Origin: Burkholderia contaminans
GTDB lineage: Bacteria > Pseudomonadota > Gammaproteobacteria > Burkholderiales > Burkholderiaceae
DNA: 64,000 bases
Assembly (NCBI RefSeq): GCF_029633825.1
Contig: NZ_CP090642.1
Location: forward strand, 1,302,001 to 1,366,000
Direction: 5' to 3'
Under the pieces are notes generated by a model. That model was not told where the DNA came from. It made no database searches and saw only the letters and a program-made list of their open reading frames with translations. Of the stretch, positions 4,664-12,808 are shown piece after piece (position 1 is the first letter of the stretch; every line of letters begins with the position of its first letter). A program made the position numbers and the translations under genes.

Positions 4664-4699
4664 GGCGGCTGACGCGACGCGCTTCGCGCGTCAGCCGCC
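4664..4699. terminator. Hairpin between convergent genes (bidirectional terminator candidate)
   Basis: A 13-base perfect stem, GGCGGCTGACGCG (4664-4676) against CGCGTCAGCCGCC (4687-4699), with a 10-base loop. It lies just past the receptor stop and overlaps the stop codon of the convergent permease gene. There is no T-tract. Confidence 0.5.
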
Positions 4700-5944
4700 G
4701 ACCACGAACCGCGCGCCCAGCGCGAGCAGCAACGCAGGCGCCATCACGCACGCGCCGACCGCGAGAAATTCGCGGAAACCGACCTGCAGCCCTTCGCGCC
4801 GGATCGCCGCCAGCCACAGAATCGTCGCGAGCGAGCCGGTGATCGACAGGTTCGGGCCAAGATCCACGCCGATCAGAATCGCGTCGACCACCGTTTGCGG
4901 GCTGTGCGCCGCGTGGATCGTCGAACTCGCGATCAGCCCGGCGGGCAGGTTGTTGACCGCATTCGACACCAGCGCGACCGCGACGCCGGCCACGGCCGCG
5001 GCGACGTGCTCGCCGCTTTGCATCAGCATGTGCAGCAGGCCCGCCAGCGCGCGCACCGCGCCGGTCCGGTCGAGCGTCTCGACGACGACGAACAGCCCAG
5101 CGACGAGCGGCAACACGCTCCATGAAATCTCGCGAACGATCGGCACGCACGCCGCGCGATCGCGCATCGCCACGCACGCGACCGTGACGACGCCCGCCAG
5201 CGCGGTCGGCAACCCGAGCGGGCGATCGGCGACCGACACCGCCATCAGCGCGACGGCCGTTGTGGCGATGCCCGCGAGCGCGATGCGCCCGCCGCGCGTC
5301 AGCGGCTGCACCGGCAGCGCGGACTCGCAATGGCCGGACAGCGCACGTCGCTGCACAATCCGCAGCATCACGAACGTGCAGACGATCGACGCGACGGACG
5401 GCGCCGCGAAGTGCGCGAGCCAGACGCCGAGCGCCGGCATGTGCGCACCGTACAGTACCAGGTTCGCCGGATTCGAAATCGGCAGCACGAAACTCGCGGC
5501 ATTGGCGACGAGCGCGCAGCTGTACAACAGCGGCATCGGGTCGGCCTTCGCGCGGCGCGCGGCGGCCAGGACCGCGGGCGTCAGCACGACGGCGGTCGCG
5601 TCGTTAGACAGGAACACCGTGGTGACGACACCGACGCCGTAGATCAGCGCGAACAACCGCCGCGGCGAGCCCTGCGCGAGATTGACGACGTGCGTCGCGA
5701 CCCAGTCGAACAGCCCCTCGCGACGGGCCGCCTCGGACAGCAGCATCATGCCCGTCAGGAAGAGGTACACGTCGCCGCCTTTTGCGACGGCGTCCAGCGC
5801 CTGGGCAGCAGGCAACAGGTTCAACACGACCAGCAGTAGCGCGCCGCTCACGGCCCACGTGGCTTCGGGCCAACCGAACGGACGTGTGATGACGCCCGCG
5901 GTGGCGAGCGCGGAAATCAGCCATGCAAGCGAAACAGGATTCAT
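4691..5944 (-). CDS. ArsB/SLC13-type inner-membrane anion permease
   Basis: A 417-residue polytopic membrane protein of the ion-transporter superfamily that includes ArsB and NhaD. About ten to twelve hydrophobic segments are visible. Conserved helix-hairpin sequences FLSNDATAVVLTPAV and LPISNPANLVLYG match the paired Asn-rich re-entrant motifs of ArsB-like permeases. It probably exports arsenite or transports another anion coupled to ions. No arsR, arsC or arsH lies nearby, so an arsenic role is not supported by context. The ATG at 5944 is preferred to an in-frame TTG two codons upstream. It is co-directional with the MFS gene 37 bases upstream. Confidence 0.85.
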   Translation of the reverse strand: MNPVSLAWLISALATAGVITRPFGWPEATWAVSGALLLVVLNLLPAAQALDAVAKGGDVYLFLTGMMLLSEAARREGLFDWVATHVVNLAQGSPRRLFALIYGVGVVTTVFLSNDATAVVLTPAVLAAARRAKADPMPLLYSCALVANAASFVLPISNPANLVLYGAHMPALGVWLAHFAAPSVASIVCTFVMLRIVQRRALSGHCESALPVQPLTRGGRIALAGIATTAVALMAVSVADRPLGLPTALAGVVTVACVAMRDRAACVPIVREISWSVLPLVAGLFVVVETLDRTGAVRALAGLLHMLMQSGEHVAAAVAGVAVALVSNAVNNLPAGLIASSTIHAAHSPQTVVDAILIGVDLGPNLSITGSLATILWLAAIRREGLQVGFREFLAVGACVMAPALLLALGARFVVGG

Positions 5945-5981
5945 GGGCAAGTCGATAGAGGCATGAGAATCGACATCGCGT

Positions 5982-7253
5982 TCACGACGATGTCGCCGAT
6001 AGATCGGCGGGCTTGCCGCACACGCTGCTCAGCGAGCGTGCATGACCGAGCCACAGCGCGAGCGAGCCCGTCGACACGGCGCCCAGCACGACGAACGCGG
6101 ACGGATAGCCGAAGTGTTGCGCGAGCACGCCGCCCAGCACCGGGCTGAGCGCCGCGCCGATACCCTGCGCGGTCGCGACGGCGCCCTGCCCGGCATTCAC
6201 GCGGCCGGAACCATGTAGCAGGTGAACGACGAGCGCGGGCACGACCACGCTTTGCAGCCCGGCGCCGATGCCGTCGAGCACCTGCACCGGCCACACGCCC
6301 GCTTCGCTCATCCACGCCGCGGCGACCAGCCCGCGCACCGGCAGCACGAGGTACGAGAACAGCAGCACGCGCCAGTAACCGTGCGAGCGAATCAGCCGGG
6401 GCGCGAGCCACGCCGCCGCGATCATCACGCACTGCGCGATGACGATCGTCTGTGCGGTGAACGCGCTCGCATTGCTGCGCTGCGTGACGACGACACCCAT
6501 CCCGTAGAGCGGCAGCATCGCGGCGTTGCCGAGATGAAACAGCGCGAGCGACGCGCCGAGCAGCACCAGCGGCCGGTTCTCGGCGAGCGTGCTCAGGCCG
6601 CCGACGCGCGACGTCGACGCCGACACCGCGTCCGACGCATGCGGATGCGCAGCTTCCGTTCCCGGTGCGGCACCGGCAGGATCGAGACCCCGTGCGGACG
6701 CATGATCGATCGCGTGCCCGGGAATCGCCAGCGTGCTCACGACGGCGAGGACCGTAAACGCGCCGACCAGCGCGAACACCGCGTCGAATCCGACATGCCA
6801 GCCGAGCCACCCGGCGAGCGCCGCACCGGCGACGTTGCCGGCGTGGTTCGCCATCTGGTTGCGCCCGAACTGCCGGTCGAAACCCTGCCGGCGCACGATG
6901 CCGAGCGTTACGCCCGCGGCGGCCGGCGCGAGCACCGCGCCGCTGACCGCCGCCACGATCTGCGACGCCGCCACCGCCGGATAGCCGTGGACGAACATCA
7001 TCGCCAGCGACGCAAGCGCCGTCACCGCGGTCGCCGCGACGATCAGCGCCCGCTTCGCGCGCACCGCGTCGACGAGCGCGCCGGCCAACGGCGTCGCGGC
7101 CATCGCGGCGAGCCCGGCCAGCGTCATGACCGAGCCGATCGCATCGGCGCCCCAGCCGCGCGACAGCAGGATGACGCCGATGAACGGGCCGATGCCGGCC
7201 TGCACGTCGGCCAGGAAGAAGTTGAGCGCTTCGAGCGCGCGCGCCGGTCTCAT
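5982..7253 (-). CDS. MFS transporter
   Basis: A 423-residue major facilitator superfamily protein. Two six-helix halves can be followed, split by a hydrophilic loop around residues 185-225 rich in Ala, Asp and His. The N-terminus (ALNFFLADVQAGIGPFIGVILLSRGW) and the loop 2-3 region (GALVDAVRAKR) fit small-molecule exporters. It starts 21 bases after the stop of the cytoplasmic repeat-domain protein and is probably the last or next-to-last gene of that sigma-54-linked transcript. Substrate unknown. Confidence 0.88.
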   Translation of the reverse strand: MRPARALEALNFFLADVQAGIGPFIGVILLSRGWGADAIGSVMTLAGLAAMAATPLAGALVDAVRAKRALIVAATAVTALASLAMMFVHGYPAVAASQIVAAVSGAVLAPAAAGVTLGIVRRQGFDRQFGRNQMANHAGNVAGAALAGWLGWHVGFDAVFALVGAFTVLAVVSTLAIPGHAIDHASARGLDPAGAAPGTEAAHPHASDAVSASTSRVGGLSTLAENRPLVLLGASLALFHLGNAAMLPLYGMGVVVTQRSNASAFTAQTIVIAQCVMIAAAWLAPRLIRSHGYWRVLLFSYLVLPVRGLVAAAWMSEAGVWPVQVLDGIGAGLQSVVVPALVVHLLHGSGRVNAGQGAVATAQGIGAALSPVLGGVLAQHFGYPSAFVVLGAVSTGSLALWLGHARSLSSVCGKPADLSATSS

Positions 7254-7274: not shown

Positions 7275-7823
7275 TCATTCGACATCCGCATCGACGAGCT
7301 CGGCGATCTCGCTCACGTCGAGCGTCGTGCCGTGCGGCGTGACGACGCCGTGCCCCCACGCCTGCACATGGACCCCGGGACGCAGATATTCGTGCAGCGC
7401 CTCAGCCGCATGCGGCGGCACCCGCAACGCGACGCCGCTCGTCAGCAACGCACCGTTCACCTCGCCTTTCGGGCCATGCAGCGCGAACGCGACTTCGCCG
7501 CTCGATTCCATCGGTTGTCGAGCGGGGTGCGTCGGCTTCGGCGGTGCAGCGTGCGCGGGCCCGTCGTCGACGATATCGACGCCGTCGCGGCCGGTCAGTT
7601 GCACGGCCGCGATGATCTCCGCGCGACGCGGCTTGACGCCCCGCACGCGGATGCGGTCGCCGACCGCGACGCGGCGTACCAGTTCGCGGCCCAGATGCGG
7701 CGGCACGTGCACCTGCAGGTCGCCGTTCAGGATCAGGCCGTCGATGTCTCCGTGCGGATTGAGCAGGAACTGGGTGACGCGGCCGCGCGTTTCGGGCAGG
7801 CAGGCGGGATCGATCCAATGCAT
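7275..7823 (-). CDS. Two-repeat beta-barrel-like protein, cytoplasmic (unknown function)
   Basis: I do not recognise a named family. The 182-residue protein contains two copies of an about 65-residue domain (roughly 12-80 and 108-176). Each copy follows the pattern G-x-V, then P-x-G-x-x-(D/N)-G, then L-x-x-G, then a V-P-P-H motif, then G-D/V-x-V-x-x-G. Predicted short beta strands suggest an OB-fold-like barrel. The same domain occurs twice in the exported product of the next gene upstream. There is no signal peptide. GAAAGGAG seven bases before the ATG is a strong ribosome binding site. The gap of 42 bases to the upstream gene suggests one transcript. Confidence 0.75.
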   Translation of the reverse strand: MHWIDPACLPETRGRVTQFLLNPHGDIDGLILNGDLQVHVPPHLGRELVRRVAVGDRIRVRGVKPRRAEIIAAVQLTGRDGVDIVDDGPAHAAPPKPTHPARQPMESSGEVAFALHGPKGEVNGALLTSGVALRVPPHAAEALHEYLRPGVHVQAWGHGVVTPHGTTLDVSEIAELVDADVE

Positions 7824-8633: not shown

Positions 8634-8670
8634 GACGGGCTCCGGCGACGGGTTGCGATGCCTCGATATC

Positions 8671-8687
8671 CGCAATACCCGTGCCAA
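8671..8687 (-). promoter_or_regulatory. rpoN-dependent promoter: Sigma-54 (-24/-12) promoter
   Basis: On the minus strand TTGGCACGGGTATTGCG matches the consensus TGGCACG-N4-TTGC exactly, with GG at 8685-8684 and GC at 8673-8672. Predicted transcription start is near 8660, 27 bases before the ATG of the exported repeat protein. Confidence 0.88.
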
Positions 8688-8737
8688 CCCGCAACGCCCC
8701 GCGTGGCCATGCGCCGAACGACGACGCGTGCGAAACA

Positions 8738-8754
8738 TGTCGGATTTCCCGACA
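8738..8754. promoter_or_regulatory. Upstream activator palindrome 1
   Basis: TGTCGG-ATTTC-CCGACA, centred near -86 from the predicted sigma-54 start. It is a likely site for the enhancer-binding protein encoded immediately upstream. Confidence 0.75.
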
Positions 8755-8769
8755 CGTCGCGTCACCGGA

Positions 8770-8786
8770 TGTCGGCATTCCCGACA
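8770..8786. promoter_or_regulatory. Upstream activator palindrome 2
   Basis: TGTCGG-CATTC-CCGACA, the same palindrome as site 1 and 32 bases away centre to centre, about three helical turns. It is centred near -118 and lies 15 bases beyond the regulator stop codon. Confidence 0.75.
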
Positions 8787-8801: not shown

Positions 8802-10184
8802 CTAGCCGTCGCGCTCGATCCCGAGATTCGCCATGCGCGCATAGAGCGACTGGCGGCCGATGCCGAGCTGCCTCGCGGCTTCCGCGCGGTTGCCGTTCGC
8901 ACGCTCGAGCGCGTGCAGGATGGCTGCGCGCTCGACCGTCGCCAGCGCATCGGTCAGCGGCATGTCGAGCAGGTGCGCCGGCACCGCATCGGCGCCCGGT
9001 TCGCGCGCCGGCACGGCGGCCGAGCCGAGATCGGCCGCGCTGACGGCCGGCCCGGGGGCGAGCGCGGCCGCCCGCTCCATCACGTTGCGCAGTTCCCGCA
9101 CGTTGCCCGGCCAGCGGTGATCGAGCAGCGCGCGCTGCGCGTCGTTCGTCAGATGCAGCGCGCGCATGCCTGCCGCGTTGCGCAGGAAATGCGCGGCGAG
9201 CGGAAGGATGTCGGCCACACGCTCCGCGAGCGGCGGCAGGTGCAGCGGAATGACGTTCAGCCGATAGAAGAGATCTTCGCGGAACGTGCCGTTCGCGACG
9301 GCCGCAGCGAGGTCGCGGTGCGTCGCGGCCACGACGCGAATGTCGATTGCCGTGGCGCGATCCGCGCCGAGCGGCGTCACCTGGCGCTCCTGCAGCGCGC
9401 GCAGCAGCTTCGCCTGCATCGCGGCGGGCATGTCGCCGATCTCGTCGAGAAAGAGCGTGCCGCCGTCGGCCTCGACCAGGCGCCCCGCGCGATCGGCATG
9501 CGCGCCCGTGAACGCGCCGCGACGATGCCCGAACAACTCGCTTTCGAGCAGATCGGCCGGAATGGCCGCGCAGTTCACGGCGACGAACGGCCCCGCATGC
9601 CGGGCCGATGCCGCATGCAGCACGCGGGCGGCCACCTCCTTGCCCGTGCCCGTCTCGCCGGTCAGGAGCACGGTCGCGTCGCTCATCGCGGCGCGGCCGA
9701 CCTGCTTTTGCACGTCGCGCATCGCGGCGCTCACGCCCAGCAGTCGCGGCCGGTCCGCCGACGGTTCGCCCGCGAAACCACCGTCGGGCGGCGCGGTCGC
9801 GAGCGCGGGCGGCTGATTCGCCGACACGACGCGTTCGAGCAGTTGCGCGATGTCGCGACGCCCGATCGGCTTCGTCAGGTGATCGAATGCGCCGAGCCGC
9901 ATCGCTTCGATCGTGTTGTCGCTGGTCGCATGGGCCGTCAGCATGACGACCGGAATCGCGGCCAGCGCGGGATCGTCGCGCAGTTGCGCGAGCACGGCCA
10001 GCCCGTCCAGATCCGGCAGGCGGAAATCCAGGAAGATGCATTCGACGCCACCGCCGTCGCGCAGCGTGCCGAGCGCGGCGCGACCGGTTGCGGCCTCGAC
10101 GGCCCGATGACCGAGATCGGCGAGCGTTTCGGCGAGGCCGTCGCGAAAGGCCGCGTCGTCGTCGACTATGAGGATGTTTGCCAT
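8802..10184 (-). CDS. Sigma-54-dependent response regulator (NtrC/AtoC type)
   Basis: A 460-residue enhancer-binding response regulator. The receiver domain (1-120) has the acidic pair DDD at 8-10, phospho-acceptor Asp53 (FLDFRLPD) and Lys105. The AAA+ domain follows with Walker A GETGTGKE (176-183), the sigma-54 contact loop GAFTGA (223-228), Walker [12 protein letters not shown] and the RPGNVREL-type sequence [10 protein letters not shown]. The C-terminal Fis-type helix-turn-helix reads [20 protein letters not shown]. Its start overlaps the end of the sensor kinase gene by 19 bases, so the two are translationally linked. The palindromes just downstream of its stop are its most likely targets. 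Confidence 0.95.
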
Positions 10185-11656
10185 GGAATTTCAATCACGA
10201 ATGCGGCGGCCCCGTCGAGGCGCGCGTGCCCGCCGTGCGCCGCCGCCACTTCGCGGACGACGGCAAGACCGAGGCCCGTCCCATCCGCGCGACCCGTCAC
10301 GAACGGTTCGAAAATCCGCTCGCGCTGCGCGGCCGGCACGCCGGGGCCGCTATCCGACACGGTGAGGCACAGCCAGTCGCGCCCGGCGAACGCGCGCCGC
10401 TCGGCGGCGAGCGTGACCGCGCCGCCGTCGCCCGCGTGGTGCAGCGCGTTGAGCAGCAGATTGTCGAGCGCGCGCCGCATCTGGTCGGGATCGAACGCGG
10501 GGAAATCCGACGGCCACGCAAGCCGCTCGCCCTGCCCCGCGAGCGACAGCGTCAGGTCGATCGCTTGCCGCTGTGCCAGCTCGCGGTGCGCGTCCACCAC
10601 CTGCGCGAGCCACGCGTCGACGTCGACCCGTGTCGCATGCGGGCGCACCGGCTGCGTCAGCGCGAGCAGGCTCGACAATTGCGCATCGATGCGCTCGATC
10701 TGCGCGAGGATCACGCGCAGCGCGTCCTGCTGCCGCCGGCCATCGCCGGCCAGCGCGTTTTCCGCCTTCAGCCGCATCGCGCCCATCGGATTGCGAATCT
10801 CGTGCGCGACCTGCGCGGCAAGCTTCCCCAGCATGCCGAAGCGTTCGGCCTGCGCGAGGCGCGTGCGCAGTTCGTCGGCCTGCTGTTGCAGCAGGTCCGC
10901 GCGCCGCGCCCGCTCGTTGAACGCATCGATGACGCGGTCGAGATCGGGCTCGCCGACATACGGCAGGTGATGCTCGCGACCGTCGGGCCCCAGCCCGCTC
11001 TCGATCCGCGCGAGATTGCGCTTCCATCGGCGCAGCGCCACGGCCAGCGCCGCCGCGATCGCCAGAATCACGGCAAGCACGGCCGCGAGGCCCGTGGCCA
11101 GCAGTTCGCCGTGCCGGCCCAGCGGCGGGCGCGCACGTGTGAGCATCCACACGTACAGCCCCGAGCCGCCGCGTACCGGGCAAGCCGCCGCGACCACGGC
11201 ATCCTGCGCGCCTTCGACGACGTTCGCCGTCGCGGCATGCGTCGCGGCCGCGGCGCGCAGCGTGCGGAGGATCAGCGGCGTTTCCGCTTCCGGAACGTCG
11301 CGTTTGACGCCGCTGCCCTGGTAGGTGGGAAAGGAATACGCGAGAAAGCCGCTTGCCGCCGGGGCGGCGCCGGGCATCCAGAACCCGCCTTCCATGTCGG
11401 GCGCACGGGAGAGCACGATGTCGAGGATCGCGTGCATCAGGTCCGGGGCGGGCCCGGCGCCTGGCGACGCTGAAGACGCGCTGTAACGCGACGCGACCGC
11501 CTCGCATGCCGATGCGCCGGCGGCCTTCGCGCCGGCGACCTGCTGGCTCTCGGCGGAACTCGCCGTGACCCAGACGACCGCGACCAGCGTCGCGCACAGC
11601 GCGGCGACGAGTGCCCAGAGCATGACAAGTTGGGTGGAAAACGACGGACGCTTCAT
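10166..11656 (-). CDS. Sensor histidine kinase (partner of the sigma-54 regulator)
   Basis: A 496-residue membrane histidine kinase. Transmembrane segments lie near 10-30 and 185-207, enclosing a periplasmic sensor region of about 150 residues with no recognised domain. A HAMP-like stretch follows, then the H box with His285 (AAQVAHEIRNPMGAM), N box LDNLLLNALHHAG, G1 box DSGPGVP and G2 box GTGLGLAVV. The kinase class resembles NtrB/AtoS-like partners of sigma-54 activators. The stimulus is unknown. The gene is divergent from the PL5-like gene, with a 195-base intergenic region in which I see no convincing sigma-54 site. Confidence 0.93.
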   Translation of the reverse strand: MKRPSFSTQLVMLWALVAALCATLVAVVWVTASSAESQQVAGAKAAGASACEAVASRYSASSASPGAGPAPDLMHAILDIVLSRAPDMEGGFWMPGAAPAASGFLAYSFPTYQGSGVKRDVPEAETPLILRTLRAAAATHAATANVVEGAQDAVVAAACPVRGGSGLYVWMLTRARPPLGRHGELLATGLAAVLAVILAIAAALAVALRRWKRNLARIESGLGPDGREHHLPYVGEPDLDRVIDAFNERARRADLLQQQADELRTRLAQAERFGMLGKLAAQVAHEIRNPMGAMRLKAENALAGDGRRQQDALRVILAQIERIDAQLSSLLALTQPVRPHATRVDVDAWLAQVVDAHRELAQRQAIDLTLSLAGQGERLAWPSDFPAFDPDQMRRALDNLLLNALHHAGDGGAVTLAAERRAFAGRDWLCLTVSDSGPGVPAAQRERIFEPFVTGRADGTGLGLAVVREVAAAHGGHARLDGAAAFVIEIPWQTSS

Positions 11657-11851: not shown

Positions 11852-12808
11852 ATGCGCGCCCGTTCCGTTCGAATCTTGTCCGCTGTCCTGTTCGCCGTCG
11901 GTACGCTCGTCGGCACGGCCTCCGCCAGCCACGCATGCGAAGTGCCTGCTCCCGTGCGGACGATCGACCCGCCCGGCTACTACGACGACCCCACCGGTTA
12001 TGCGCGCGACGTGAAGCCGATGCGCGACTTCGTCGCGAAGCTGAACACGGCGGCGGATCATGGCGACTGGTCGTGCGCGTTGACGCTGCTCGACAGCTGG
12101 GCGCAATCGGATGCGTTGATGGGCGCGATCTCCGGTTATCAGGGCTACTACGAGCGCTCGTGGGCCGGCACCGATTTCGCGATGGTGATCCTGCGCATGC
12201 CGCGCGGGTTGCGCGAAGCGAACCGCGGGAAATTCAACGCGATCGACCCATGGCTCGAACGCATCGCGATCGCGACCCGCAATGCGGAAGCGATCAACCA
12301 CCTGCACAACAATCTTGTGTACTGGGCCGGGCTCAACCTGATCGCGATCGGCACCGTCACTGATAATGCCAGCCTGATCGATTCCGGCTTGCTGCGGGTG
12401 CGCGAAGGCATTCGCGACATCCGCCCGGACGGCTCGCTCGAGCGCGAGGTCAAGCGCGGCGACCGCGCGCTCCACTATCACACCTTTGCGCTGCTGCCGC
12501 TCGTGTTCGCGGCCGAACTCGTTCAGCGGCGCAACATCGATCTCTACCGCGAAAACGACGGTGCGATCGGCCGCCTCGCGAACCTCGTGATCGACGCGGT
12601 GGAAGACCCCGCGAGTTTCACGAAGATCACGCCGGTCAAGCAGGACCTGTTTCCGTGGACGTTCCGCGACGAACTGAGCTGGGTCGAGCCGTACTACGCG
12701 CGCTTTCACGATCGCCGCCTGCCGGCGATCATCGCGCCGCGCCGCCCGTTCAGCGAATGGCGGCTCGGCGGCGACGTGACGGCGGCATGGGGCGCGCCGC
12801 TGCCATGA
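11852..12808 (+). CDS. Alginate-lyase-fold (PL5-like) secreted protein with altered active site
   Basis: A 318-residue protein with a signal peptide (MRARSV...TASASHA). The start at 11852 is the first that yields one. The body aligns with polysaccharide lyase family 5 (AlgL, Sphingomonas A1-III): NNxxYW, the GTVT region and KRGDRALHYHTFAL are family landmarks. Counting from A1-III residues Asn191, His192, Arg239 and Tyr246, this protein keeps Asn154, Arg202 and Tyr209 at identical spacing but has Leu155 in place of the catalytic His. It may be inactive, act on another polymer or use another base. No alginate biosynthesis genes are nearby. Confidence 0.8.
   Translation: MRARSVRILSAVLFAVGTLVGTASASHACEVPAPVRTIDPPGYYDDPTGYARDVKPMRDFVAKLNTAADHGDWSCALTLLDSWAQSDALMGAISGYQGYYERSWAGTDFAMVILRMPRGLREANRGKFNAIDPWLERIAIATRNAEAINHLHNNLVYWAGLNLIAIGTVTDNASLIDSGLLRVREGIRDIRPDGSLEREVKRGDRALHYHTFALLPLVFAAELVQRRNIDLYRENDGAIGRLANLVIDAVEDPASFTKITPVKQDLFPWTFRDELSWVEPYYARFHDRRLPAIIAPRRPFSEWRLGGDVTAAWGAPLP

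Follow-up and report, generated by a model that had tools for sequence, protein, structure and literature searches.

In ZraPSR from E. coli and Salmonella, the genes of a sensor kinase and a sigma-54 response regulator share a locus with that of an exported protein, ZraP, a zinc-binding periplasmic chaperone encoded divergently from zraSR; excerpts of two reports describe the system as a near single-target regulator (PMC8249747, PMC4987338). For a second system, QseE/QseF (GlrK/GlrR), the site TGTC(N)10GACA is given in part of the latter report (PMC4987338), and its exported partner QseG acts on the kinase QseE according to an excerpt of another (PMC6075780); its targets are glmY and rpoE. Exported OB-fold proteins under two-component control provide a further point of comparison. 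The SipA/VisP/YgiW proteins (BOF family) contain one OB domain each and are not known to be controlled from a sigma-54 enhancer. They are exported and induced via a two-component system, and SipA binds antimicrobial peptides, as stated in sections of PMC6370654 and PMC5636140.

Here we describe a locus on a 64-kb stretch of Burkholderia contaminans DNA (the window, at its full length) that, judged from its sequence, probably encodes a sigma-54 two-component module dedicated to a single main target. As in ZraPSR, kinase and sigma-54 regulator are encoded next to a protein predicted to be exported; however, its tandem OB and transporter genes lie downstream in the same direction. Its predicted sites, TGTC-N9-GACA, closely resemble that of QseE/QseF, but the spacer is nine instead of ten in both window dyads (relatives were searched with a spacer of nine only), and its predicted targets include transporters. 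With SipA/VisP/YgiW it shares an exported OB-fold protein under predicted two-component control, which in contrast to these proteins has two OB-like domains.

The regulator gene (8802..10184, minus strand) encodes a sigma-54-dependent response regulator with a receiver, an AAA+ domain and a Fis-type HTH. These domains score 88.1 (receiver), 237.9 (sigma-54 activator) and 49.1 bits (HTH_8) in Pfam, with cut-offs of 30.2, 20.2 and 22, respectively. The translation contains a GAFTGA loop and a phosphoacceptor Asp53, both located by eye and presumably placed correctly by the usual rules. Based on its domains, the GAFTGA and Asp features, and the target promoter with its upstream sites, the protein classifies as a bEBP of the NtrC family, for which ATP-dependent activation is predicted. 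Overlapping the regulator gene by 19 bp is that of a membrane sensor histidine kinase (10166..11656, minus strand) that is hydrophobic around residues 12-30 and again around 190-208, with a domain between these two segments. This periplasmic domain has neither a Pfam match above cut-off nor a relative in the PDB by sequence at E<=1, which agrees with the unknown signal of the original prediction. Within the sensor domain of the window kinase, C51 and C159 are nearly invariant and may form a disulfide or a redox site. Membership of the pair in ZraSR, AtoSC, NtrBC or GlrR was rejected, as the NCBIfam cut-offs were missed among the best 25 of 111 families for the regulator and the best 25 of 68 for the kinase: the equivalog scores reach 356.9 for ZraR (cut-off 760), 131 for ZraS (479) and 340.9 for GlrR (763).

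RpoN is encoded by two genes above the family cut-off (G000:C1:626377-627849 and G000:C3:888856-890274), the second of which shares its replicon with the module; the acting sigma-54 could be either product. Divergent from the kinase gene lies an alginate lyase gene (window 11852-12808, plus strand; NCBIfam poly(beta-D-mannuronate) lyase, 628.4 bits, cut-off 615) that was matched in two of 56 loci of relatives.

The original prediction had placed an exact -24/-12 promoter and two identical-arm 17-base palindromes, 32 bases apart, directly after a GAFTGA activator gene that overlaps its kinase gene, and this arrangement is borne out in every part. On the minus strand, TGGCACGGGTATTGC at 8672-8686 matches TGGCACG-N4-TTGC exactly and is the sole exact match in the window, while about 0.07 such elements per 64 kb are expected by chance (60 first-order simulated sequences); at up to one mismatch, five elements were counted versus 2.33 expected. 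The complete predicted promoter TGGCACGGGTATTGCG (8671..8686, minus strand) includes base 8671, a G directly after TTGC, where the usual sigma-54 consensus has A/T. Transcription would start near 8660 if, as we assume, the usual -12 rule applies, with the ATG of the first target gene (8633) following about 27 bases past this start behind a CGGAG recognized by eye. Upstream, both predicted enhancer dyads carry perfect TGTCGG-N5-CCGACA arms. The proximal one, TGTCGGATTTCCCGACA (8738..8754), begins 68 bp before the first -24 base and the distal one, TGTCGGCATTCCCGACA (8770..8786), lies 32 bp or about three helical turns further (start to start), so that their centres precede the predicted start by about 86 and 118 bp. 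Exact dyads are expected about 0.03 times per 64 kb. Three places are listed in the 9.4 Mb genome, two of them in the window locus and the third at C2:350741 (L001).

A scan of named genomes with the cytoplasmic OB protein yielded 88 confirmed loci, of which 80 were kept, spanning Burkholderia, Paraburkholderia, Caballeronia, Robbsia, Noviherbaspirillum and Bradyrhizobium. In 56 of these, the regulator gene immediately precedes an OB gene, and the counts below refer to these 56 loci, which are related and hence not independent; the other 24 were dropped because a regulator match within 900 bp upstream of an OB gene was missing or because a contig end truncates the locus. Between regulator and OB gene, a -24/-12 element with up to two mismatches occurs in 51/56 loci, versus 0.67 expected from shuffles and three on the reverse strand, and an exact TGTC-N9-GACA in 48/56, the eight exceptions being L074, L112 and six Bradyrhizobium loci. 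When a looser promoter pattern was combined with two dyads, each with at least six of eight arm bases, the first dyad was found at 67-70 bp and the second a further 22 bp (46 loci) or 32 bp (5 loci) away, i. e. in 51/56 loci (all except L061, L064, L078, L091 and L094) compared with 0 of 2800 mononucleotide shuffles. Such whole-turn spacings would keep both dyads on one face of the helix, an arrangement that would suit cooperative binding.

The Bradyrhizobium dyads, inspected by eye, have the form YGTCAG-N5-CTGAC(G/A), and a weaker second copy follows after 22 bp. In L128 from this genus, both predicted dyads fall, by eye, within the 3' end of the regulator coding sequence, and such an overlap is also seen in L130, L131, L133 and L135, so that the C-terminal tail of the regulator would be encoded by its own predicted binding site. 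At another locus (L087:6300-9000), kinase and regulator are each matched in two overlapping pieces, which may mean a broken module in this assembly from a symbiont; the locus was nevertheless counted among the 56.

Downstream of the promoter, four minus-strand genes form a predicted operon with intergenic gaps of 42, 21 and 31 bp. The first encodes a tandem OB-fold protein, P0001 (7866..8633), with an N-terminal export-signal-like segment seen by eye. It is followed by a 32% identical tandem OB-fold protein that has no such segment and would be cytoplasmic (7275..7823), an MFS transporter (5982..7253) and an ArsB/CitMHS-family transporter (4691..5950; listed start TTG at 5950, with an ATG at 5944). 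The exported and cytoplasmic repeat proteins and the MFS exporter that had been named as targets are hence all present, but that list lacked the ArsB/CitMHS gene at 5950-4691. Their description as uncharacterised can be lifted in part, to tandem OB folds, an MFS protein, an ArsB/CitMHS carrier and, in some relatives, a metallophosphoesterase, whereas any substrate is still a matter of inference.

Both window repeat proteins are predicted to be tandem OB-fold proteins on the basis of structure models. Foldseek TM-scores, taken on the query, are low for P0001 (0.16-0.25), VIA-align tested the OB fold well for residues 71-157 only, and the second OB domain is predicted from its similarity to the first and from the structure model. 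Neither protein reaches a Pfam cut-off. P0001 was not assigned to DUF5666, given 12.1 bits versus a Pfam gathering score of 27, and this profile is matched at E<=1 by seven of 19 OB family members including P0001 (best E 5.2e-4). BOF was likewise rejected: the OB fold itself agrees, but the BOF Pfam profile gives no match to P0001 at E<=1 and is absent from the 11 Pfam families matched by the 19 OB relatives. A PDB search with the profile of A2 gave weak, scattered matches only.

Among solved proteins, the MFS transporter has its best, though weak, match in the drug exporter NorA (E 2.4e-4). The fourth gene product belongs to the ArsB/CitMHS superfamily, exceeding the Pfam cut-offs of ArsB (85.1 bits, cut-off 22.2) and CitMHS (143.5 bits, cut-off 31.9) but staying below those of NCBIfam for ArsB (158.4 vs 457 and 134.4 vs 415); of the solved proteins, an arsenical pump membrane protein is closest to it. 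Neither transporter reaches any NCBIfam cut-off. The metallophosphoesterase, detected in 6/56 loci, resembles in one relative solved proteins of the phosphohydrolase, Rv0805 and Icc types. At L048:2873-4636 (minus strand), the cytoplasmic OB protein and a metallophosphoesterase form one ORF of 588 residues. An OB pair at L047:5986-9175, with neither kinase nor regulator match in 16 kb, adjoins a Tox-REase-5 protein and an Imm52-like protein that falls just below the cut-off.

With regard to mechanism, the domains suggest that a cue in the periplasm or inner membrane is detected by the kinase, which in turn phosphorylates the receiver of the regulator, whose AAA+ ring with GAFTGA would then remodel the sigma-54 polymerase and open the promoter. 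Acting via the two helically phased dyads, the regulator would drive the genes for the exported OB, cytoplasmic OB, MFS and ArsB/CitMHS proteins from one promoter. Tentatively, and with less than even confidence, we propose that the trigger is envelope stress or a toxic compound that the OB proteins bind and the two transporters expel. The exported OB protein may bind the toxic compound or a damaged envelope component and might feed back on the kinase, its cytoplasmic counterpart could do the same binding inside the cell, and the MFS and ArsB/CitMHS transporters would carry the toxic compound out. This stress role is inferred from domain families and analogy, because ZraP beside its sigma-54 kinase pair (PMC8249747, PMC4987338) and the two-component-induced SipA (PMC6370654, PMC5636140) both serve it and because transporters accompany the module.

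Sigma-54 two-component systems often control nutrient uptake. The module might instead serve the transport of an anionic or organophosphate nutrient, which the CitMHS/ArsB-family or MFS protein would import and the metallophosphoesterase of the relatives process, the signal then being the nutrient rather than stress. The CitMHS score and the resemblance of the relative's enzyme to the phosphohydrolase, Rv0805 and Icc point in this direction. Yet, few loci carry the metallophosphoesterase, the MFS protein is related (if weakly) to a drug exporter, and the annotated regions that were read show no catabolic genes recurring next to the core, which makes nutrient uptake an unlikely alternative to the stress role.

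The question of how far the regulator reaches was addressed by searches for the composite site of -24/-12 element and dyads, in line with the check proposed with the original prediction. It occurs once in the own 9.4 Mb genome, versus none for a reversed control pattern, and at 34 places in 32 of 200 family genomes, again versus none. By position, 30 of these 34 lie at module genes (G171 being inferred from distance) and four elsewhere (G190, G117, G182 and G130). Relatives of P0001 are found in 43 of the 200 genomes (own included) and in eight of 25 genera; an exact composite stands at the module in 28 of these 43 and is absent in 15. On both strands of the 80 loci, which cover about 20 kb around the module, 52 composite sites were counted, each upstream of a module gene: 48 precede OB genes and four a divergent MFS gene (L082, L106, L120, L121). 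Thus, four of five loci with a divergent MFS gene have a separate site for it, and in the fifth (L108) inspection by eye shows a dyad and an element resembling the promoter, farther apart than in the usual geometry. In one relative (L056), whose module gave no ArsB match when searched for it, the same promoter and two dyads precede a pair of metallophosphoesterase and ArsB genes at a distance of about 94 kb from the module. Since composite sites lie at module genes including split-off transporters, the predicted regulon comprises both OB genes, the MFS and ArsB-type genes and, where present, the metallophosphoesterase gene. Lone cytoplasmic-OB relatives were also seen outside modules: five of them (L069, L079, L100, L104, L126) have no composite site, and one (L140) lies beside a FadR/GntR regulator gene.

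Might the regulator nonetheless run a broad regulon, for example in envelope homeostasis, with this operon as one target and the exported OB protein as a general envelope factor? Dyads with up to one mismatch occur at 81 places in the own genome versus 16 for the reversed pattern, so that weaker targets, also at dyads lacking a promoter element, may exist, and E. coli ZraR, single-target by gSELEX, gained 25 targets by ChIP-seq according to an excerpt of PMC8249747. However, the full composite site is unique in the genome, and all 52 composites in the 80 loci (about 20 kb each) are at module genes, which renders a broad regulon improbable. Still less probable is a new compound-defence operon under one private sigma-54 switch, in which the paired tandem OB proteins would bind a phosphodiester- or nucleotide-like toxin, the metallophosphoesterase would cleave it, and the MFS and ArsB-type transporters would expel the products. 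A sigma-54-controlled operon for resistance to arsenic or metalloids, as suggested by the Pfam ArsB match, the arsenical pump as best solved relative and a Caballeronia relative named 'arsenic transporter', was set aside as a leading idea and is the most improbable reading, since the NCBIfam ArsB cut-offs are missed by far, CitMHS scores above ArsB in Pfam, and the annotated regions consulted, whose gene tables are incomplete, name no arsR, arsC or arsH next to the module.

Concerning distribution, the kinase was found in 55, the MFS gene in 50 and the ArsB gene in 32 of the 56 loci (those cut by contig ends included). The order HK-RR-OB-OB-MFS-anion transporter also occurs in Bradyrhizobium. 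Because several strains carry the module on a third chromosome or a plasmid, it may be mobile; kinase-regulator-OB sets lie on plasmids of Bradyrhizobium, Methylocystis and Acidiphilium. In a smaller relative (L168), where 13 kb hold the kinase, regulator and OB genes and no transporter was detected, the set-up hints that the exported OB protein acts as core effector or else partners the kinase in the way QseG does with QseE.

Taken together, the wiring of the dedicated module, with its regulator, paired dyads, one sigma-54 promoter and small target set, is well supported by comparative sequence evidence, and its recurrence in many soil bacteria gives it the look of a genuine signalling unit. 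The self-contained sigma-54 module originally proposed has thereby gained weight from the conserved geometry, the one genomic composite site and the same site at split-off transporter genes. While the type of circuit is already known, the effector set seems undescribed: the combination of tandem OB, MFS and ArsB-type proteins was not found in the literature searched, which consisted of titles and abstract openings with most subscription journals missing and therefore does not prove its absence. In the main text of a paper on the sigma-54 regulon of P. phymatum (PMC5979394), five gene-type terms are absent, and 'two-component' appears three times, on NtrBC. The module offers a complete testable input-output unit of sensor, activator, sites, promoter and effectors, the targets of which are defined by comparative genomics, and it is built around a pair of OB-fold proteins that reach no Pfam cut-off. 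Its inducer, once found, would give a role to four genes that recur in similar order in many Burkholderiaceae and some Alphaproteobacteria.
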